Source: Siphonodentalium dalli
Taxonomy: Eukaryota; Mollusca; Scaphopoda; Gadilida; Siphonodentaliidae
NCBI GenBank assembly: GCA_032622095.1
Contig: CP136063.1
Location: 144,169,950-144,233,949 of the forward strand
DNA length: 64,000 nt
Direction of reading: 5' to 3'
The notes beneath the pieces are model-generated. The model searched no databases. It was not told where the DNA came from and saw nothing but the letters and a program-made list of their open reading frames with translations. A program made the translations under genes and the position numbers. Within the stretch, counting starts at the first letter, position 1. Every line of letters begins with the position of its first letter. Positions 9,556 through 62,465 of this stretch are shown piece after piece.

Positions 9556-12500
9556 CTGGGAAGGTAGAATAAACAAACACATGCCGCAATCATTTGCCAA
9601 ATATACTTATACTATGTTACTTTTCTCCAGACACCAAGGAAATTGGTAGTCTGGAGATAAAATCGAGATCCCGATCCCGTAACTGTATATTGTATCAACA
9701 CGGTCCTGATAAATTTAATTTAGGCCTTATGTATCTTCCTGTATCTTACAGCAAATACATAGCGGCCTAACTTACCTTATTATGACTGTTGTGAGAGTTA
9801 GACCGGGGAGAACTTGATATTAAAGCTTTTTTTTTATCTCATTCGAAGCATGAGTGTGTCCTGTATAACTTATCCAAAATCCACTTTGGGAAAACATTTC
9901 TAGAGCTCTTTGGAAAATTTGTCGTTCCTTATGGAATATAACTTCAATGGCATTTAACTACAAGTTATAACGATGGTAGAAACATGCAACAATAACAATT
10001 GTTATTATTATTGTCATGACGGACATTTGTCATTTGTTGTACTATTCGATTGTCAAAATTCAAAATGGCGGACATAATGGTGCAATTTTCGCTAAATTTA
10101 ACCAGATCATTGCCATTTATTACAAAACTATTGATTTAAACGACCATTAGTACCAACGTATACCATGTTACATCAATATATGATAATTGTGAGCCATATC
10201 GCGAGCATTTGTCCCTTCAATGTCTCTCAAATTCGAAATAGAATTGTACTAAATTTGGAAGAAGAAAAGTCAAATATTATTTTAATAACCATAAAATGAA
10301 ATAATTTCATTGATTTGAAACTCGTCTCATATCTAATATAATTTAAAGCTAATAGTTATATATGTCATCAAATGAGTATCCAAATTTTTAACACTGTTTC
10401 AAACGTTGAGATACAATGGTTCCGATGTACTAATTTCTTAGTTCCGTTTCTGAATAATGAGCAACCCCTAGTATACTGAAGTAAGTCCGTACTCAGTATG
10501 GACGTATATAGCACAGAGCGTGACATTTTACGACCGTACTGATTACTGACGTATAGCAGCCACGAGATTAATGGTACACTAGTAACAAACCAACCGGTGA
10601 GTGAGTCAGAGTGACCCAGGTCCATAGAACTGGCGTCCCAAATCATCCAAATAGTGTCCCAAGCCACAAAATAAGTATCACAATCAACACAAACTAGTGC
10701 CCAAAACCATCAAAGTTGTGTCCGAACCCGCACAATGAGTGTCTCAAGCCATCCGACGATTGCCATATGTGACACATAGAGTGTCCCAAATAATGTACGT
10801 GGCGTCCCAAGCCGCCCAAATTAGTGTCTAAACCAACCAATTGAGTATCCCAAACCATCCAATTGGTGACACAACCCAAGAAATGAGTGTCCATATATAT
10901 AAACCATGTAATGAGTATCCCTAGTCACACGGCAATTGCATCAAGCTACCAGGAGTGTCTCAAACAACACCAGAATGCACCACACCATCTTAATAACTGT
11001 CCATTAAAATATCAAGAAATCCGGCGAGTGTCCCATGGTTTTGCAAACTCATTGGATGATCTGGAAAACTAATTTGATAGTCTGACATACTCGATTGACG
11101 GGTTTGTTCACTATTTTGGATGTATTGAGATGACATCAGTAGGTGGTTCGTGACACCAGTTGGATGGATCGGGAACTCACTGGATGGTTGTGATACTTTT
11201 TATGGCTTTTGCACGCGTTGGACACCAATTGTGTGGTTTTGGACCTCGCTATGGATTTTGGTTTTGGACCTCGCTATGGATTTGTGATATTAGTTTTGGT
11301 GGATTACGACACTCATTTGTCGATTAGATCATTGATTTGGACACTAGTTGAATGAATTGTTGGGTGGTTTGAGGATACATGTTGTATGACAGAGGAGACT
11401 CCCCGGACGGCTTGTGACCCATATTGGATGTTTATTTGACACTCTTTGTGTGGCTTCTGATACGCGCAAGGTGGCATGGGACACTCATTAGATGCTTTGA
11501 CACACTCGCTTGGTGCTCGTTGTATGGTTTGGCGCACTCATTGGACGGTTAGGGACACTCATTTCGGTAGATGTGACACCTGTTGCGTGGTTTGGGACAC
11601 TACATATGTGGTTGGAACACCAGTTGTATAGTTTGGGGCACTACCGATGTGGATTGAAACATTCGTTGTTTGGATAATATGGTGTATCTGTGGGTTGGGA
11701 CACCAATTGCATATGGATTGGGGCACTACTTGGGTGGTTTGTGAAACTCGTTGGGTGGATTGGGAGTAGTATTGGCGGCCACTCTGACCCACCCCCTCGC
11801 TCGTCGACACTCTAGCCCACGGGCTAGAGTGGCCGACAGCGAGGGGGTGAGCCAGAGAGGCCGCCCAGGGTCGGCTCGTCGGTCCAAAATTTCTGGGTCG
11901 AGGGGGTGGGCCAGAACAAATCCAAACCCCTCGCTCGGGACCAGAGTGGCCCGCCCAGGGTCGGTCCAGATGTTGTGCTAGATTCCAAAGAGTAAGGTGA
12001 GCGCTTCGAAGGGTTTTGACAAAAAAGAAACACACCTGATTTGACGTTCGGGAAAATTGGTAGAAAAACTCAATGACGTCGTCAACAACGAGGCCCGCGC
12101 ATCCCATATATTTGATCCTCGAAGATGTTAACGTTATTACATGCGTAAATTGTAACGTTAGCGTTATGGATCCAGTAAAGGAATTTCTCAAGACTATTGA
12201 TGTGCAGTACGACCATGTTCCTGCAACAACGCAAATGCCGACTCCACTGTATGCAGGCAATGTGACATCACGGGTAGAACAGCAACAGGTACCAATGGTG
12301 TATCCGCGAACGGATCAACAACCAGTGTATACACCGCCATTGAAAACATAACAAATGACTCAACCTGTTATATACCAAGTTATCAACAGTTCACAATGGG
12401 AAGAACAGACAAAATTGTTACGGAATATTTGTCAGGAAATGAAGGATTTGCGAAAGCAGTTAACAAAAAAACCGGCTGAATGTACAATTAACTTGAAACC

Positions 12501-15490
12501 TCACACGATTGACACACCAATTGAGGTATATGGTTTCCAGAAAGAACCTATGAAGCGATCAACATTTGGATCACTCGGGAAAGATTTAACAGTAATGAAG
12601 AAACAAAAGAAATGATTTTTATATTATTTTAAACGGCTATTTTCAAGGCCACTTAAAATTCACGAAAGATACGCTCTGTATTATTATGCTATATGATGAT
12701 CGTATTATAGATATGAAGGGTGGTAGTGGGTTTTTTTTATTGTTAGGGAAGTATTCTTTGATAAATTATGTGAACATTCTCTCCAAGTTCATGATGAATG
12801 ATTTTGGTTTGGAGAAATTATGAGAACATTCTCTCCAAGTTCAGGAAGAATGAACAAATCGTACAGTAGCAATAGTAGAGCGTATCTTTTTAAAAATTTG
12901 TGAGGTCATGAAAAGGGCCGTTTTTGGATGGTTTCAAAAGAAACCGCAGGATGAGTTTGGGTTTGAATACAGCTGAAAGTGGTTTTGGGAACGTCGCAAC
13001 CAAATGGCACAATTGCACGGCTAGCCTGTCTGTATCCCCCAGAGCGGTAAGAATTCGTAAACTCTATGCCCTGAGAAGATTATGATAGACCGCTGCAGTG
13101 ATGTAGCCGCGAGTCGCACCATCAATCGTGACGTCCCCACGTTTTCACCGGCGGTGTATACACTGGTTGTTGATCCGTTCCAGTGGAGTCGACATTTGCG
13201 TTGTTGCAGGAACATGGTCGTACTGCACATCAATAGTCTTGAGAAATTCCGTTACTGGATCCATGTTTCAAAATAACGCTAACGTTACAATTTACGCATG
13301 TAATAACGTTAACATCTTCGAGGATCAAATATATGGGATGCGCGGGCCTCGTTGACGACGTCATGCGTTTTTCTGCCAATTTTCCCCGAACGTCAAATCA
13401 GGTGTGTTTCTTTTTTGTCAAAAACATCATATTTCTATGAATAAAACACCGATTTGACTCCGGAAAATTTTATCTGTACCATTTTACCATTATCTCATAA
13501 CATATTTCACTAAAAGGTAACTTCTACGAGTATATTTTACAACACTAGCGTCTTCGAATTTATTCGAAGACTTTCGCTTTTGTTAAAAATGCACTGGTAA
13601 AGTAGCACAATTTACCAATGCATCTATTTTTGCTCGGTATTATTCTAAGTTCAGTGTGTACAGCGAAGGGGGACGCCCTTCGCTTACCACACTGCCATTA
13701 GAATCCGAGAAAAAATCGATACATTAGTAGATTGTGCTCTTTTCTGTCAAAACCCTTCGAAGCGCTCACCTTACTCTTTGGAATCTAGCACAACCTCTGG
13801 TCCCACCCCCTCGCTCGGGCCCACTCTGGCCCATGGGCCAAAGTGGCTGCCCCGGGTAAACAAACTTGCTGGGGGCGGCCACTCTATGGTGGCCAGAGTG
13901 GCCCCAAGCGAGGGGTTGGGATTTTTCTGGCCCACCGCCTCGCTCGGGGCCACTCTGGCCCATGGGCCAGAGTGGCCGACCCAGAAATTTTGGACCGACG
14001 AGCCCGACCCTGGGCGGCCTCTCTGGCCCACCCCCTCGCTGTCGGCCACTCTGGCTTATGGGCCAGAGTGTCGACGAGCAAGGGGTGGGCCAGAGTGGCT
14101 GCCAATACTACTACTATTGGGACACCACGTCGATGGTCTAGGACAACATTTGGATTTGGTGGTTCCGTCGTATTGATTGGGACACTCATATATTGGTGTC
14201 TGGATACTATATGAATGGTTTGTAACTCTGTATATGGTTTGGTACCGGTACACTCGTTATGTGTCTTGGGATACTCATTTGATGTGTTCTGAATCTAGTT
14301 GTCGGCTTTGAAAGGTAAACGTTGGCATATATATGCATAATGCTATAAATGTATTCGATATGTGAAGATTTAGTAAAATAAAATTAATAAAACACTTCAA
14401 TTATTGACTTTCGATTGCAATTTACGCCGTCATTTTGAAGACTTTTGAGACACCGAATTGTCAAATACTCGGGATATGACTTAGTATTATCGGATTAGGA
14501 TTGCAAATAATAAATGATGGTGCAACGTACTAGCTACTAACGCCTATTACTTTCGTATAAATGGAAACGATCTGGTGAATTTTAGCGTAAAATGATAATG
14601 TTTACTACTTCTGGTTGCATTTTGTGCGCCATTTTGGAATTACGTTTTTATTGCAGGTTACTGCCACGTGTATATCTTTAGACAACATTGAACTGAGTGG
14701 GAGTTTGCTCCCGGAAATGGCGACCATCTTGACCGCCATATTACCTGGGACATACACTGCCACCTTGTTACGTCGAAATAGTTTGAGCGTTCGAATATAA
14801 AAGTGAATCATGTTTAATCGTTTACCGACCTGGATCCCTGAAAAAATGTTTTCAGCGTTTTACCCAAAAATAACGACTTCCCCTCCCTGAAAGGCATGGG
14901 TATATTAGATATGATTTAGTATCGATGAATAGTTCTGTATACCGCTATTTTGATCAACTTTGCCCACTAGATATATTTAAAATGATTATGACGATGGTCC
15001 TGAAATTTGTGCAGGTGTATGTAATCTGATCTGGATGTTCTTTGCATTGAGATCTGATTATTGCATGAACACCTACTTGTCTTACGGTTTTTGGCTACCT
15101 CTGGTAATAACTGTGATAATGTATTTACAGTCGTATCACAACTGTAAGCAATTAAACAATCATTCCGTGGACCGTGGTAAATTGCCCGGTGTGAATTATC
15201 ATTTTCATTTGTATTATTATTTCAACGCTTTTGTACTACTTTTCGCCATGTTTGCTATTTTATTGTTTATTCATTATGTATTCTCAGCAACCTGTCCTTA
15301 TATATGGATGTTCTTGCTAACAAATTCTATTCTATTCTATTCTATTGGATGTTATTGTGTGGTCATAGTGGTCATAGTAAGCTAATTCTGAATGGTGTTC
15401 GGCAACCACAGTTCGGAAATCGATCAAACATTCACGGCATTCCTATGTATTCTGCTAAATCTTCAATACTGGAGGCAATAAAGATATATG

Positions 15491-28647: not shown

Positions 28648-31600
28648 TAGAAGGTGACCCGACTTCGTCCGGGCTTTGACCTTGAATTGACCATTTTGAA
28701 GGTCAAGGTCAGGTGGGGTCAAACACCAACACCCCAAAAATGGTGGAAATCGGCCCAGCGGATAACGGGAAATCGGCCCAGCAGATACCGAGATAACCTA
28801 TGCATCAAATTTCGTCCGTAAAAATCCGCCAGTTTAAACCGATTTGATTTCCACTCAAGTATATAAACGCGCCTCATATACACACGCTCATTAATTATCA
28901 AGTTTCAACGTAAAGATAAATTACCATCGGTGCCCGAGATATCGCCAAGACGTCTGAAACAGTTAAATGCATCGGCCGGTTAAGCGTTAACGTGATCTAA
29001 CGTTATGACCTCTAACGACGTCATAGAAGTTACGCATTGTTTTTATCCTGATGGAAGATAGTACCACTTCTTCTTGATAAGTGAGGCAGATAACTAAAAC
29101 GGATACATACGCATTATATATCGTTGGAAAGAGGAAACACGAAAGATTCTCACAGTGTCATTATTATGACTGGCATTTTATTATTCGCGCTGTTTCGAAT
29201 CGATTTGTAAGCACCCAACTCAAATGAAAGTCCCGTAACACAGCGTAAAAACAGATTTGACCTCGGCACGTGAAAAGTTGACCTCGGATCTGAAAATCAA
29301 CAGGCCCACGTTCGTTCCCGGGTCGAATTACGTGTCCGTACCAAGTTTGGTCGAAATCGGTCCAGCCGTGTTCGAGTCCATCGCGAACGCACACACACAC
29401 AGATCTTCCAAAATATATAATAGATATATATAAAGCCAAAATCAGTTATATTGGGTTACTCACGTCCTTTCCAAGGAATGGCTTGTCTGGTGGCACAAGG
29501 AGATAGTTACATATGTTCTCAAATTCATTATCCAGGGTATCTATATCAGAATCTCGCGTGTATATCTTCAGCGCGAACTCTTCGTCTTTGGGGACTGTCA
29601 CCTTGATTTCCACTTCATGTTTGTCAACGGTAACTTGGGTGAACCCTCTTAGTTGATCTGCACTGAACTCGTTATTAAACAACTGAGCTCTCACCTCCAA
29701 TAGAAGCTTCGATTTGAATTTGATTGTGAACTCTTTATTAACTCTGAATACGATTTTCCCATTTCTATGCGTCTGTGCCACATTACCCTGCCGTCTGAAT
29801 GGCCGTCCCGGACCCCAACCTATTCCGGGGCAGTCCGGTAAAGGTTCGTGACTGGAGGGCTCTGTGACTCTAACAATCATCTCACATGCAAGGATGTCTG
29901 GTTGGGCATCCTCATCGGCAAGAATCCACAACTTATATGTGCCAACTTCTGGAATACGTAATACGAATTCAACATCTTTCTTCACGTGGTTCATAAACAT
30001 ATATCGATTCAGTTTCTTTTTCGATTTCGTCCGTTCAATGAAGCCTTGTCGAAACAACTTGTAAGAAACATTTACGTCTCTATTCTTCACTCTGAACCTC
30101 GTTATTCCCCTTCCATATCTCGTTTGTAGAATAGCACAAACACCAGTTACGTGTTTCATACCGGTTAAGAAATATTGTGGTTGGTAATAAGGAAGGTTTA
30201 CAAATTCAGTTGAGGAAATAGCATTTGGCAATAATTGCCATTCGGGTTTATCAGGAAAGCAATCCGATATCAACCACTCTGAGTCAGTAAGGAAGTAATA
30301 ATCGTTTACATATTCAACGACTCGACCTCTCTTTCCTTGCTGTTTTTCGACCGTTCTCCTTCCGTCAGCCTCCAACAACGTCCAGTCTCCATCCACGTCC
30401 CCGTCTACAGCCAACAGCCCCCATAATGGGTGCACGAACCGCCAATCGCCGTCCACGAATGCTGCGTTCCAACGGCTCTTCACCTTAAAAACGTCTTCCT
30501 GGTCACCTACTTCATATACTGACGTTTTGGCGCAGCCATCGATAATCACACACGGGGTGCCTGTTTGTCTGTATAAAATACAATTGCAATGAAGCTATTA
30601 ATTATTCTAACTTACATCGTTAGAACAAATTAGCACACCTCGTTCAAACGACGAAATCTCCTAGTTTTCGGGAGAACAAAAAGACTCATGTTTCAGCTAT
30701 TAAACCAATTGGAATACTAAGACCACAATATTGGCCTTCAGTTGAAGACTTACTATAGTAAAGTTTAATTATTTACATAAATTTGTTTTGGCTCAATATT
30801 GTCCCAACTAATTTATGTTAAAAGTACTTACTACAGTATATATAACTTAGCTTAGTTATTTAAATCAATGTTTGTTCTCAAATCACCGGAAAAGTTAAGT
30901 ATATCTTTCTCAGAATAGCTAACATAATATAAATACAAATATTGATACCGCTTATTTCTTATTTCCATGCAGCTGCGAGAAACAGATGTTGCTGGTCACG
31001 TATAAGGAATCAGGGAGCTAAATGTGTTCTAGAGTCGGGGAGCGAGTACACCGTGGAATTCTAAAGGTGAAGGTAACTGAAGAATGACCTTCACTGATAC
31101 ATGCGACATGTTATTAAAGGATGACATCGCGTTTATTTGATTTGTACATAATATCTAAATAATTTAAACTGGTGAATTAATGGCGGCATGGATTTTTGTG
31201 AGATGGAAATTTATTTAACTAGCTGCTGTAGTTCTGGGTTTTTCCATATCAAATTTGGCTGTGGGATACCCCTGTCGTACCCTTGGGGATTTATTTTTAA
31301 AAAGTAAACACATGACCTATGTTTTATCTTGCAACACTGTCGCCTATGGGAAACCATTTAGTTCAGTGATTCCATAAGTACGGCTATGGGAAAAACAACA
31401 TCATACCTGCAACACTCGGCGAAGAACTCGGTGACATCGGCCTGCCCATCATTCATACGGTCGATGAATCCATAAGGAGAGTCTTCGTCATCCACACCAA
31501 CAACCTCCTCATTGAAATCTTGGAAACCCATCCAGACGAAAATGAATCTGATTCTCTCTATGTCGTTCTTACATGTCTCGTCGAGATATTCTTTCATACC

Positions 31601-37085: not shown

Positions 37086-38150
37086 TCACGTTTCTCTGCC
37101 GACTCCCAGATAGAACTCGACTTCTGGAGGTTCACAGTCGAAAAATGTGCTGACTGTGCTCCCATATAGGCAAGTGCGGAAATTTGTCAGCAGGGTACCT
37201 ACTATGTAGTACTTTCCAACAGGTTGTAAATATAGTTTCAAATTCTTCTTAAAGTCGAGAAATGCAAATGTCTTCACAACTTTCCCGAAGCTCCATTCAA
37301 CTGAAACCCTGACTGCTGACATTTCTTTATTGAATTGTTTTTCTTCGTCACTCAGCCTACCCCTGAAAGGTGCCATGAGGTGTGGTCTCAATGGGTATGC
37401 CGGATCTTCATATAGAGCATAAATGTGATCATCGGTCCTTGTCATGCGCTGTTCAATTTTAGGCAGTAGTCCACTCAAACGCAACATACCCGCATCGTGG
37501 CGTCGTCCTTCCACTGGTCCATACAAGTTAGCAATACGTCCGTCCGGAGTTGTGACAGCTTGGAATTTCAGGCAGTGGAAACGCTTGTGGCCGCTAAAAA
37601 CAATCCTTTGGTTTTTTCTGGGCCGACAGATCGGTCTGGCGGTACCATCTATAAACCCCCAACAATTATTTAAAGGGATATCATGTCCGTTGATAGCATC
37701 CGTATATCTTTCCAAATGTTCCTGTTGCAGCCATGGTTAGTCCAGTTCTTCCAGTAAATGGTGATGTTCGGTATATATGTGGTCAATTGTCTCGTTAAAA
37801 ATTCTCGAAATTTCAGATATCGAACGTCCGAACATGTCGACCAAATCAGTCAAACGATTTGGATAAGTAAGTCTACGGAGAGTTATGCACAGCTCATCTA
37901 CCCCCGAGACGACGGTACCGTTGGTGCATATGAATTTTTCAGGGATGCGCATAGCTTTGACAAGCCTCTGTATGTCGTCCTTTAAGAATCGAAAATTCTT
38001 CGCACATTCCCCATCAGTAGCTTGATTAAAATCAAATCTTTTGGTTAAACTTGCTCTTGGACGATCTGCAGCCTCAGCGATAAGAAAAAGAATATCATCT
38101 GTATCAGCATATTCAGCGAAAAGCATCAAATCAATCGATGAATGCGACAT
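37086..38150 (-). pseudogene. PIF/Harbinger transposase (DDE_Tnp_4 type), one in-frame stop
   Basis: A minus-strand frame of about 355 codons is interrupted only by TAA at 37739-37737. The N-terminal part carries a helix-turn-helix region (ELCITLRRLTYPNRLTDLVD, MFGRSISEISRIFNETIDHI). The C-terminal part carries the catalytic DDE core: first Asp in CWGFIDGTARPICRP, then GHKRFHCLKFQAVTTPDG, second Asp in GPVEGRRHDAGMLR, and Glu in VRVSVEWSFGKVVK. All three catalytic positions are present. The transposase family cuts and pastes elements at TWA-like 3-bp targets. The single stop makes this copy inactive unless read through. No intron is evident. Confidence 0.9.
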
Positions 38151-48386: not shown

Positions 48387-48397
48387 TATATATATAT

Positions 48398-49510
48398 GTC
48401 AGAGTTATGGAGGCACGGACTCAGTATGAGTGTTCATTACTTCACATTTGCGTGAACAAATTCTCATGTCTTATCGAAATGGCCATGTGTCGATCGGAAT
48501 GGTACATTGAGATGTTCCTCAAACCAAATCAAGCTTGAAAACCGGTCCCGATTTTCATCCATGCCGGGGTTCTAACTCGCGCCAACCTCGTCTAGCCCAT
48601 ACTGTGATGATCGTATCCACGACCAAACCACATCGGCTACGGGGACATCCTTAAAAGGAAGCCCTTTCACCGAAAGTTAGGAAGCGTGTCAGTCTGAACA
48701 TGGGTTCGAACCCACTGCCTTCGAAATTCTTGATCTGCCATTCTGGAAACATGACAATGCACTTTCTCCGAAATTGCATATGTGACCATACGATTACTGG
48801 TACTGGCGTATATATATATATATATGTCAGAGTTATGGAGGCACGGACTCAGTATGAGTGTTCATTGCTTCATATTTGCGTGAACAAATTCTCATTTCTT
48901 ATCGAAATGGCCATGTGTCGATTGGAATGGTACATTGAGATGTTCCTCAAACCAAATCAAGCTTGAAAACCGGTCCCGATTTTCATCCATGCCGGTGTTT
49001 GAACCCGCGCCAACCTCGTCTAGCCCAGACTGTGATGATCGTATCCACGACCTAACCACCCCGGCTACGGGGACATCCTTAAAAGGAAGCCCTTTCACCG
49101 AGAGTTAGGAAGCGTATCAGTCTGAACATGGGTTCGTACCCACTGCCTTCGAAATTCTTGATCTGCCATTCTGGAAACATGGCAATGCACTTCCTCCGAA
49201 ATTGCATCTGTGACCATACGATTACTGGTACTGGCGTATATATATATATATATATGTCAGAGTTATGGAGGCACGGACTCAGTAGGCCTATGAGTGTTCA
49301 TTGCTTCATATTTGCGTGAACAAATTCTCATTTCTTATCGAAATGGCCATGTTTCGATCGGAATGGTACATTGAGATGTTCCTCAAACCAAATCAAGCTT
49401 GAAAACCGATCCCGATGTTCATCCATGCCGGGGTTCGAACCCGCGCCAACCTCGTCTAGCCCAGACTGTGATGATCGTATCCACGACCTAACCACCTCGG
49501 CTACGGGGAC
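48398..49510 (-). repeat. Tandem triplication of a SINE-like unit (~429 bp)
   Basis: Units start at 48398, 48826 and 49256; the third stops at about 49510. Short TA tracts separate them. On the minus strand each unit holds a tRNA-like module: an A box in TAGCCGAGGTGGTTAGGTCG and a B box GGTTCGAACCC (best in unit 3 at about 49441-49431; unit 1 has decayed). Units 1 and 2 carry a second B-box-like GGGTTCGAACCC near 48708 and 49134. Frames through the units are not genes. Confidence 0.75.
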
Positions 49511-49543
49511 ACACACACATATATATATATATAATGGCTTGGA

Positions 49544-60147: not shown

Positions 60148-61606
60148 AAAAATGTCGCTTTCGACAGATTTGACGGCATGGGTGGGTGGTCCGCCCCAAA
60201 TACCACCTAGAAGCACCCCCCCCCCCCACCACCCATCACACCCGGGAGGTGCCACCCCGAGGGGGTTAAAATGGGGTATGGACCATTTTCGAGAACGGTA
60301 AGGATTTCGACCGATTTGACGGCATGGGTGGGTGGCCCGCCCCAAATACCACCTAGAAACACCCCGACCCCCCACCCATCACCCCGGGGGGTGCCACCCC
60401 GAGGGGGTGAAAATGGGGTATGGACCATTTTCGAGAACGGTAAGGATTTCGACCGATTTGACGGCATGGGTGGGTGGCCCGCCCCAAATACCACCTAGAA
60501 ACACCCCGACCCCCACCCATCACCCCGGGGGGTGCCACCCGAGGGGGTGAAAATGGGGTATGGACCATTTTCGAGAACGGTAAGGATTTCGACCGATTTG
60601 ACGGCATGGGTGGGTGGCCCGCCCCAAATACCACCTAGAAACACCCCGACCCCCACCCATCACCCCGGGGGGTGCCACCCCGAGGGGGTGAAAATGGGGT
60701 ATGGACCATTTTCGAGAACGGTAAGGATTTCGACCGATTTGACGGCATTGGTGGGTGGCCCGCCCCAAATACCACCTAGAAACACCCCGACCCCCACCCA
60801 TCACCCCGGGGGTGCCACCCCGTGGGGGTGAAAATGGGGTATGGACCATTTTCGAGAACGGTAAGGATTTCGACCGATTTGACGGCATGGGTGGGTGGCC
60901 CGCCCCAAATACCACCTAGAAACACCCCCGACCCCACCCATCACCCCCGGTGGTGCCACCCCGAGGGGGTGAAAATGGGGTATGGACCATTTTCGAGAAC
61001 GGTAAGGATTTCGACCGATTTGACGGCATGGGTGGGTGGCCCGCCCCAAATACACCTAGAAACACCCCGATCCCCCCCCCCCCACCATCACCCCCGGGGG
61101 TGCCACCCCGAGGGGGTGAAAATGGGATATGGACCATTTTAGAGAACGGTAAGGATTTCGACCGATTTGACGGCATGGGTGGGTGGCCCACCCCAAATAC
61201 CACCTAGAAACACCCCGACCCCCACCCATCACCCCCGGGGGTGCCACCCCGATTGGGTGAAAATGGGGTATGGACCATTTTCGAGAACGGTAAGGATTTC
61301 GACCGATTTTCGGCATGGGTGGGTGGCCCGCCCCAAATACCACCTAGAAACACCCCGACCCCCACCCATCACCCCCGGGGGGTGCCACCCAGAGGGGGTG
61401 AAAATGGGGTATGGACCATTTTCGAGAACGGTAAGGATTTCGACCGATTTGACGGCATGGGTGGGTGGCCCGCCCCAAATACCACCTAGAAACACCCCGA
61501 CTCCCCACCCATCACCCCGGGGGGTGCCACCCGAAGGGGTGAAAATGGGGTATGGACCATTTTCGAGAACGGTAAGGATTTCGACCGATTTGACGGCATG
61601 GCCCAC
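60148..61606. repeat. 141-bp GC-rich satellite, about ten copies
   Basis: Landmark GGATTTCGACCGATTTGACG recurs at about 60304, 60444, 60584, 60725, 60865, 61006, 61153, 61294, 61435 and 61576, with a period of 140-141 bp (one 147). Units are nearly identical, with poly-C length changes. Each contains a potential stem around CACCCCGGGGGGTG. The GC content is far above the surroundings. Because 141 is a multiple of 3, both strands give long repetitive frames that are artefacts. Confidence 0.95.
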
Positions 61607-61619
61607 CCATCGGTCTCAA

Positions 61620-62465
61620 ATCATTCGATACCACCGGAACTGCACGAACAGAAGCGACCTAAATCAAGCTTGTTCAGTGCTGTTCCAGACTTTACGACCG
61701 CGCGGCTACTCTGGTAGATTACTGCGCCAAATAAAGTCCGAAACTCTCAGAGAATTGGAATCGTTACGCCATGACCCAGCATCGACTGAGCCAACAAGGA
61801 TACGGCACAATCGGCCGGTGTTGGGTAATGGTTCAGCCTCATTTTGTCACAAAAAACGATGTTACATCAATACAATGGAATATCTCAATACTAGTAAAAC
61901 TTTAACCAGCGAACAAACACGCATATCGTATCAAATGCATAGCGAACTTAATTGTGATTCTAAAAATGTAATTTACTTAATCACATGCAAAAGATGCCGT
62001 ATACAATATGTTGGACAAACAAAAACCTCTGTCAAAGTTAGAATGTCTAATCATCTTTCCAGTGTTCGCAAAAAACTCGACATGCAAATTTCCGATCATT
62101 TCAACTCATCTAATCATGACATTAAATCCCATTTCAGCTTTCAGCCAATAGAACAGACACCATTTCTAGCCGACGAAGACCAAACCGATTCAATACGCCT
62201 AGAACGCGAAAATCATTGGATGGGCGTACTTAAAACATATCTTCCGTTCGGACTTAACATTGACTACAAAGGTGTTTCTCGAAATTTCTTGTGCTTTCCT
62301 CTGATCTACAATCGTAGAAATGTTGAAATCGCAAACATTTTCAGAAAAAACTTTGCATTATTAAACACTAAATTGACCGAGCCTCTCGACACACGGGTGA
62401 TTATTGCCTACAAGAAAAATCCCAGTTTGAGAGATATGCTCGTTCGATCTAGACTGATTGATTGA
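61620..62465 (+). CDS. Penelope-like GIY-YIG endonuclease domain
   Basis: An open frame ends at 62465 and is open upstream into the satellite. The Penelope-specific part begins near 61660 with CSVLFQTLRPRGYSGRLLRQ, and has the zinc-binding CDSKNVIYLITCKRC, then IQYVGQTKTSVKVRMSNHLS, ISDHFNSSNHDI, ERENHWMGVLKTYLPFGLN and the terminal RDMLVRSRL. VIYLI...QYVGQT corresponds to GIY...YIG, followed by the conserved R.R...H and E.HW. In Penelope elements this domain nicks target DNA. The domain looks intact, but without an RT upstream the element cannot move alone. Confidence 0.85.
   Translation: MIRYHRNCTNRSDLNQACSVLFQTLRPRGYSGRLLRQIKSETLRELESLRHDPASTEPTRIRHNRPVLGNGSASFCHKKRCYINTMEYLNTSKTLTSEQTRISYQMHSELNCDSKNVIYLITCKRCRIQYVGQTKTSVKVRMSNHLSSVRKKLDMQISDHFNSSNHDIKSHFSFQPIEQTPFLADEDQTDSIRLERENHWMGVLKTYLPFGLNIDYKGVSRNFLCFPLIYNRRNVEIANIFRKNFALLNTKLTEPLDTRVIIAYKKNPSLRDMLVRSRLID

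Follow-up and report, generated by a model that had tools for sequence, protein, structure and literature searches.

A short Polinton-like element with two left ends in the genome of Siphonodentalium dalli

Results

A two-left-ended element in the window

The 64,000-nucleotide stretch of Siphonodentalium dalli DNA analyzed here (the window) contains a 2,351-bp element (11765..14115, forward strand), which is almost certainly a derivative of a Polinton and is non-autonomous, as judged from its ends, its arms and its mapping to a full-length relative (E16) from the same genome. By sequence comparison, the element is composed of positions 1-1734 of E16 in forward orientation followed by positions ~940 to 1 in inverted orientation. 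Since the left terminus is retained and the opposite end is an inverted left end, both ends of the element are left ends and a right end is missing. This anatomy is what is new here.

Termini, arms and insertion site

The original prediction described AGT-repeat ends, inverted arms of 580-980 bp and an exact ATTGGG duplication, all of which were recovered in the present analysis. The element starts with AGTAGTATTGGC at position 11765 and ends with GCCAATACTACT followed by ACT at position 14115, with two AGT triplets at the left terminus and a third ACT triplet (14113..14115) at the right one. The left arm (11765..12347, forward strand) is 583 bp long and resembles the left end of E16, and the right arm (13141..14112, reverse strand) is 972 bp long and corresponds to the inverted left end (E16 ~940 to 1). 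Alignment of the two arms revealed several gaps, the largest of which is a stretch of ~329 bp exclusive to the right arm and absent from the left arm near 12013/12014, and the right arm lacks 58 bp of the left-end reading frame ORF1 present in the left arm. The longest ungapped blocks (88 and 84 nt) show 98% identity each, which is far above chance. The predicted GC richness of the terminal inverted repeats (TIRs) was confirmed for the outer 202 and 318 bp (66% GC) but not for the sequence between them (39.7%, with 39.5% in the window).

The copies of ATTGGG are located at 11759..11764 and 14116..14121. Of 200,000 randomly drawn pairs of window positions, 63 shared a 6-mer, as did 181 of 135,682 pairs within the repetitive flanks. 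The element has invaded a host minisatellite with units of ~21 bp (11035..11764, forward strand), which resumes at ~14116-14301. Joining the flanks with a single ATTGGG produced the best fit to the neighbouring minisatellite unit (score 29), compared with 24 for both copies, 24 for one copy with an extra ACT and 19 for no copy; in the controls, the element-flank junctions scored 22 each and the best of 300 shuffles also 22.

Full-length relative and family assignment

The terminal-sequence search suggested in the original prediction identified E16, a 16,962-bp element of the same 2.23-Gb genome, which has the same ends as the window element, 495-bp TIRs homologous to those of the window element and an exact TACATC target site duplication (TSD). 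It is the one full-length relative traced to both ends. Pfam analysis of ten open stretches from E16 and its sister copy L012 yielded five matches above the cut-off. DNA_pol_B_2 was detected in a piece of E16 (7.2e-13) and in L012 (2.8e-13), and a second piece of E16 was just below the cut-off for this family (9e-6). The integrase of E16 matched rve (3.1e-10) and Chromo (7.5e-6), and its packaging ATPase Pox_A32 (3.4e-7), all above the cut-off. The polymerase of this family is presumably a protein-primed PolB (pPolB). The candidate protease of E16 matched Peptidase_C5 at 0.0051 (16.9 bits against a cut-off of 21.3), two open reading frames at plausible places for capsid proteins matched no Pfam family above the cut-off, and the ATPase piece of the relative had no match in IMG/VR.

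Thus, the window element has a 6-bp TSD and AGT-repeat TIRs within ~1.4 kb, as well as termini and internal sequence shared, through E16, with an element that has a PolB, an integrase and a packaging ATPase. Exact 6-bp TSDs were found for the window element (ATTGGG), E16 (TACATC) and the short copy L018 (CACGTT), and those of the short copy L028 agree in five of six letters. The exact terminus pattern occurs 280 times in the genome and its reversed control not once. The proposed Polinton affiliation is upheld by the homologous TIRs, pPolB, retroviral-type integrase and 6-bp TSD of E16, and among the elements examined there was neither a transposase of another type nor a duplication of another length, the two observations named beforehand as speaking against it.

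The window element contains short open reading frames only and maps solely to E16 1-1734 and the inverted left end. It encodes none of the core Polinton genes, as predicted, and in particular not the pPolB and integrase of an autonomous Polinton; a Polinton gene remnant is nevertheless present in the form of the start of ORF1 (12166..12351, forward strand), in which 61 codons are followed by a premature stop, with the frame reopening at 12355-12615. Mapping to E16 1531-1734 points to a probable remnant of a second, reverse-strand reading frame of the full-length element at approximately 12936..13139. A 149-aa ORF1 frame was found in ten of the 19 other copies read. No Pfam family scored above the cut-off in four stretches of the window element including ORF1, pieces of ORF1 had no significant relative in Pfam, PHROGs or the IMG/VR viral contigs (nor had the second piece among PDB sequences), and Rfam gave no match over the window at gathering thresholds. 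The dN/dS ratio of ORF1 was 0.59 (36 pairs from nine copies, leaving out L010, which is nearly identical to L009, and copies having no 149-aa frame), a weak sign of constraint to which we give no weight.

Junction, arm relatedness and other short copies

The right arm matches E16 845-44 in inverted orientation as one run and reaches ~940 bp of the left end, which is beyond the 495-bp TIR of E16 and into the start of the left-end ORF. Positions 496-845 of E16 are missing from its right end, apart from one 83-bp motif. This right end is typical of the family, as the 531 bases inside its TIR match 40 scored places at no less than 94% over nearly the whole query. At the junction (13139..13141), forward E16 ~1734 meets inverted E16 ~940; the two sides have no bases in common, and a single base is unassigned. 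The junction was spanned by the window copy alone among 40 scored places (507 candidates), which suggests that this copy arose individually.

Six other copies (up to 99.3%) are more similar to the right arm than the left arm is (97.8%), and the closest sequence to the left arm is, narrowly, the right arm (97.8% against 97.6%). In comparison with other copies, the two arms have no private substitutions in common. Given these distances and the lack of private substitutions, simple fold-back of a single molecule is not the one possible origin; derivation from a pair of parent copies, or an event long past, would fit too. The copy at C4:261463385, whose ORF1 deletion is of equal or almost equal length, was considered as a source of the right arm. 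Its deletion is shifted by ~3 bases, and of the copies compared it is the one least similar to either arm, which leaves common descent with the right arm unsupported.

Two further copies have two left ends with junctions different from that of the window element, namely L018 (3,005 bp) and L028 (6,308 bp). Derivation of both ends from one genome end, as in defective-interfering genomes, was thus observed in three copies with both ends seen, all of them recovered with a left-end query. None of 40 scored right-end copies had a neighbour within 20 kb, and hence no right-right form was seen, in a test of low power because only one left-left pair (L028) was recovered at 40 left places. Pairing of exact termini among the first 100 of the 280 gave 14 elements, with lengths of 9-32 kb; no paired element was shorter than 7 kb. 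The pattern used misses the left end of the window element, one of the ends of L028 and both of those of L018, and since all three known short copies escape this census, it adds little on short forms. A presumed tandem short copy at C6:142.73M was rejected, as the fetched stretch is a partial copy with no recognizable ends. Deletions, duplications and insertions are found in other copies too, for example in L011, L017, L023 and L024.

Discussion

The window element is almost certainly a Polinton derivative, non-autonomous and internally deleted; its two left ends probably arose via template switching or fold-back, and it may have been mobilised in trans. Most likely, a strand under synthesis would have turned back onto the left end by a template switch or by fold-back copying, a step that would remove ~15 kb and yield a symmetric molecule. 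As both termini are present, such a short molecule could be replicated and integrated in trans; the pPolB of the family would act as a helper enzyme in its replication, and the family integrase, likewise a putative helper, would join it to the chromosome, leaving the 6-bp ATTGGG duplication. That the element was already short before integration is an evenly balanced proposition.

A possible but somewhat less likely course of events is that a full-length Polinton inserted first and was then shortened in the chromosome by interrupted gap repair. After a break, the right TIR would anneal to the left TIR, copy inward into ORF1 and become joined to the remaining left part, and the ATTGGG duplication would date from the insertion of the full-length element. 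Such repair would preserve the TSD with no need for a mobile short form, and it agrees with a junction of a type that end joining can produce (a single unassigned base and none shared), with the uniqueness of this junction among the 40 scored places and with the rearrangements in other copies (for example, L011, L017, L023 and L024). However, it would require a left-arm-derived copied tract in all three both-ended short copies, and no left-right deletion of similar size was seen in 20 fetched loci, as far as their structures were settled.

The 914 candidates matching the left arm and ORF1 could suggest a MITE-like Polinton family in which the 2.35-kb form itself was amplified, but this is very improbable, as the junction is confined to the window copy (one of 40 scored places from 507 candidates), and 13 of 20 other cores resemble the full-length element over 4.6 kb or more, measured from the start of the core. 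The absence of elements under 7 kb among the 14 paired ones points in the same direction, in a census that does not register any of the three known short copies. Long, internally repetitive arms also occur in foldback elements, as described for Galileo (PMC3573991), yet a foldback element or MITE of another DNA transposon superfamily with a chance likeness to Polintons is refuted, to the point of being negligible, by E16, a full-length relative with the same ends, pieces of pPolB and rve integrase, and 6-bp TSDs.

Polintons are thought to be virus-like, but their particles have reportedly not been observed (PMC8097293). Linear protein-primed replication could leave by-products of this sort, short copies with a left end on each side. 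It is conceivable, albeit rather doubtful, that two-left-ended short Polintons are integrated defective-interfering-like genomes. Such linear molecules would originate outside the chromosome, when protein-primed replication switches templates, would be favoured by a left-end cis signal (for packaging or replication start) and would be captured by a helper integrase. If true, these copies would be genomic evidence for extrachromosomal replication of animal Polintons, in the form of linear genomes that are virus-like and have a polar left end. Polinton termini can also cap elements of 2-3 kb, which annotation might class as unknown or foldback.

Adenovirus defective genomes carry inverted left-end duplications. 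The window element resembles them as a short linear sequence from a protein-primed system that carries the left end on either side, and differs in being an integrated element, studied here at the sequence level. No packaging signal at the left end of Polintons is known to us. For adenovirus, the packaging domain has been located at the left end, and left-end DNA was found in incomplete particles (PMC5033970).

In the literature searched, which comprised papers open without subscription and did not extend to Repbase, no miniature Polinton or mini-Polinton, and no non-autonomous Polinton or Maverick, was found by those names. Galileo also has long, internally repetitive TIRs, but its transposase is of the P-element type and it is unrelated to the window element (PMC3573991). 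The fragmentary Mavericks of Mayetiola, with consensuses of 600-4,500 bp, are described in PMC8504770 as inactive, deletion-laden and containing a polymerase or integrase domain only; the window copy is likewise a short Maverick-derived sequence, but in contrast to these fragments it has both termini, TIRs and a TSD. Vertebrate Mavericks, as described in PMC8097293, have (AGT)2//(ACT)2 ends, 6-bp TSDs, TIRs of 46-1,447 bp and a length of 12,723-24,620 bp (mean 16,862). With these elements the window copy has in common the terminal triplets, the 6-bp TSD and TIRs of hundreds of bp, and E16 (16,962 bp) is of similar size, whereas the window copy stands apart from them, as there described, with its length of 2,351 bp, no core gene and two left ends.

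Termini, arms and target site duplication

The original prediction placed a 2.35-kb element with AGT-repeat ends at 11765-14115, and terminal sequences are found there: the left terminus, at 11765, reads AGTAGTATTGGC, and the right terminus, up to 14115, reads GCCAATACTACT with one extra ACT. The inverted arms, expected to span 580-980 bp, were recovered by a gapped alignment pairing 11765-12347 with 13141-14112. In this alignment, a stretch of ~329 bp occurs in the right arm only, the right arm lacks 58 bp of ORF, and the GC-rich part contains several smaller gaps; the longest ungapped block is up to 88 nt (98%). The description of the arms as GC-rich holds for the outer 202 and 318 bp (66% GC) and fails for the part between them, whose GC content of 39.7% is host-like.

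The exact ATTGGG duplication is present at both flanks. The surrounding DNA is a host minisatellite with units of ~21 bp, so that a chance 6-bp match is likelier here than elsewhere (181 of 135,682 pairs in the repetitive flanks share a 6-mer by chance versus 63 of 200,000 across the window at large). Stronger evidence for the duplication than the bare 6-mer match comes from an empty-site test, which backs it. Flanks joined with exactly one ATTGGG give GTTGGGTGGATTGGGACACCAC, identical to a nearby minisatellite unit at 19 of 22 positions (score 29). Scores are lower for a join that retains both ATTGGG copies (24), for one with a single copy and the extra ACT (24) and for one with none (19), and the best of 300 shuffled controls reached 22.

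Full-length Polinton relatives

The source assembly comprises 2.23 Gb in 9 contigs. A left-end query made up of the window element's initial 636 bases gave 914 candidate sites, of which 40 were scored (169 matches), and the 20 best other places were fetched (L009-L028, with two matching cores in L028). L009 and L010 represent one event, because their near-identity (99.9% across 7.8 kb) extends into the flanks. In 13 of 20 cores, similarity to the full-length copy E16 extends 4.6 kb or more beyond the core start, nearly to the end of the fetched DNA, whereas the window element has only its first 1.13 kb in common with E16 in the same comparison.

E16 (G000:C4:225903209-225920170, minus strand; 16,962 bp) was traced through to the opposite end, in separate stretches. 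It starts with AGTAGTATTGGC, ends with GCCAATACTACT, is flanked by TACATC on each side and has TIRs of 495 bp with 96.2% identity. Ten open stretches from E16 and its sister copy L012 were searched against Pfam, and five exceeded the cut-off, with matches to DNA_pol_B_2 (7.2e-13 in E16, 2.8e-13 in L012), rve (3.1e-10), Chromo (7.5e-6) and Pox_A32 (3.4e-7). One further DNA_pol_B_2 stretch fell just below the cut-off (9e-6), and a Peptidase_C5 match (0.0051) also lay below it. The matched genes are Polinton genes; three of the ten stretches had no Pfam family above the cut-off, and two of these, judged by position, likely encode structural proteins. With the same ends found on a long copy carrying DNA_pol_B_2, rve and a 6-bp target site duplication, the miniature-Polinton reading is supported, and the window element belongs to the Polinton family with its 6-bp duplication. 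Vertebrate Mavericks are reported to have (AGT)2//(ACT)2 ends, 6-bp duplications as in E16 and TIRs of 46-1,447 bp, a range including that of E16; their length averages 16,862 bp, against 16,962 bp for E16 (PMC8097293).

The window element has two left ends

Aligned to E16, bases 1-1375 of the window element correspond to E16 1-1734, less a piece absent from the left arm, and from base 1377 onward it is E16 in reverse. This inverted part opens with a 40-base block of the left-end ORF1 (E16 ~943-904 by position) and, after a 58-bp deletion, runs from E16 845 to 1. The junction (13139-13141) has zero shared bases and one unassigned base. The right end of E16 resembles its left end over the 495-bp TIR and one 83-bp motif only, and 40 scored places, from 341 candidates, match this right end at 94% or more, which makes it typical for the family. 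Because left-end-only sequence, including the reversed start of ORF1, is present in the window element's right arm and absent from this typical right end, the element carries a left end on each side.

In the window copy, ORF1 (start at 12166) has 61 codons before a premature stop, and the same frame reopens further on; when 19 copies are read from this start, 10 have a 149-aa frame. By eye, the product has a lysine-rich end and a likely coiled-coil middle. No significant relatives were found in Pfam, PHROGs, IMG/VR viral contigs or PDB sequences (the last with the second piece only).

Other short copies and inverted left-arm pieces

Two left ends, with differing junctions, are present in all three short copies with both ends visible (the window element, L018 and L028), a count that takes in such copies only and places the interrupted L011, L013, L019 and L023 outside it. 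L018 (3,005 bp, exact CACGTT duplications) consists of E16 up to 1175, inverted 15665-15127, 1163-2084, and a last inverted piece from 685 out to the left terminus. L028 (6,308 bp) is flanked by TTTGTT and TGTGTT, alike at 5 of 6 letters, and its second half is inverted E16 3320 to 1, gapped. The left-end query can find left-right deletions and cannot find right-right forms. Among 40 scored right-end copies (of 341 candidates), no two lie within 20 kb of each other and no right-right form was seen, a weak result, as a like left-end test on 40 places finds only L028. Three right-end copies (G000:C4:54395266, 54452029 and 54508151) lie on one strand at ~56-57 kb spacing, which suggests a large tandem duplication carrying a Polinton.

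An inverted left-arm piece (E16 ~685 to 160, sometimes shorter) follows forward sequence in 11 of 20 cores, including L018 and L028, and in nine of these 11 the element picks up again at E16 2088. These pieces suggest recurrent template switches to the left end, whether on free or on integrated DNA; in L018 such a switch seems to have had no return. The resumption site is a palindrome, whose motif also occurs ahead of ORF1 and close to the right end and may be a template-switch hot spot, being the place at which the inverted left-arm piece sits in many long copies. The motif (E16 2022-2173, locus L016) lies between two divergent ORFs, with matching places in L014, L021, L027 and L015, and may serve as a promoter shared by the divergent genes. 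At L024 (G000:C1:58216000-58224500), two same-direction left ends lie 2.5 kb apart, each with TTACGGA directly in front; behind the first come ~1.7 kb of partial Polinton sequence and then ~0.8 kb without E16 similarity.

Abundance and origin of the short form

Exact matches to a 27-base terminus pattern number 280 genome-wide (148 plus, 132 minus; reversed control, 0). From the first 100 termini listed, 14 elements of 8,965-31,613 bp can be assembled out of 15 convergent pairs spaced at most 40 kb apart, two of which have an end in common; no element falls below 7 kb, the pattern being blind to the three known short copies. Since it misses the left end of the window element, both ends of L018 and one of L028, the census could pair no known short copy. 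What it establishes is that most copies with intact ends are long, the rarity of older short copies lying outside its reach. An amplified miniature family of the 2.35-kb form is nevertheless very improbable. The case against it rests on the junction-spanning query (507 candidates, 40 places scored), which among the scored places matched in full at the window element only, with 38 places matching just the forward side and one just the inverted side; the blindness of the census raised our estimate for such a family very slightly.

Fold-back or template switching would have made the two-left-ended molecule, and pPolB and integrase would have acted in trans on the short element, which may have reached its short form before integration. 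Repair of a gap within a full-length copy that had already integrated is a serious competing explanation, to which we give somewhat less than an even chance, because the window junction is unique among the 40 scored places and the arms have no private substitutions in common. The arms are 97.8% identical in the compared region; six other copies resemble the right arm more closely (up to 99.3%) than does the left arm, whose own nearest relative is, by a hair, the right arm (97.8% versus 97.6%).

Other features of the window

A reverse-strand ORF at 29446-30549 with a KY-like immunoglobulin-like domain (Pfam, 1.3e-29) probably represents a host gene from the kyphoscoliosis peptidase group, and another at 37086-37715 with a DDE_Tnp_4 domain (4.3e-25) probably encodes a Harbinger-type transposase. 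At 60159-62465, about ten 141-bp units form a GC-rich array that extends over the beginning of an ORF containing a GIY-YIG domain (4.7e-8), perhaps a Penelope-like element beside a satellite. A 428-bp unit is repeated 2.6 times at 48387-49511 (95% matches).

Comparison with known systems

Polintons as such are already known, and inactive short sequences derived from Mavericks were described earlier (PMC8504770). In the literature searched, which was that outside subscription papers and Repbase, the terms miniature Polinton and non-autonomous Polinton or Maverick did not occur, and titles and abstract openings made no mention of two-left-ended Polintons. On a bold reading, by analogy, two-left-ended short Polintons could be captured defective-interfering-like genomes. 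Left-end duplications are found in adenoviruses and parallel these Polintons, the latter being known here from integrated sequence. The adenovirus packaging domain lies at the left end (PMC5033970).
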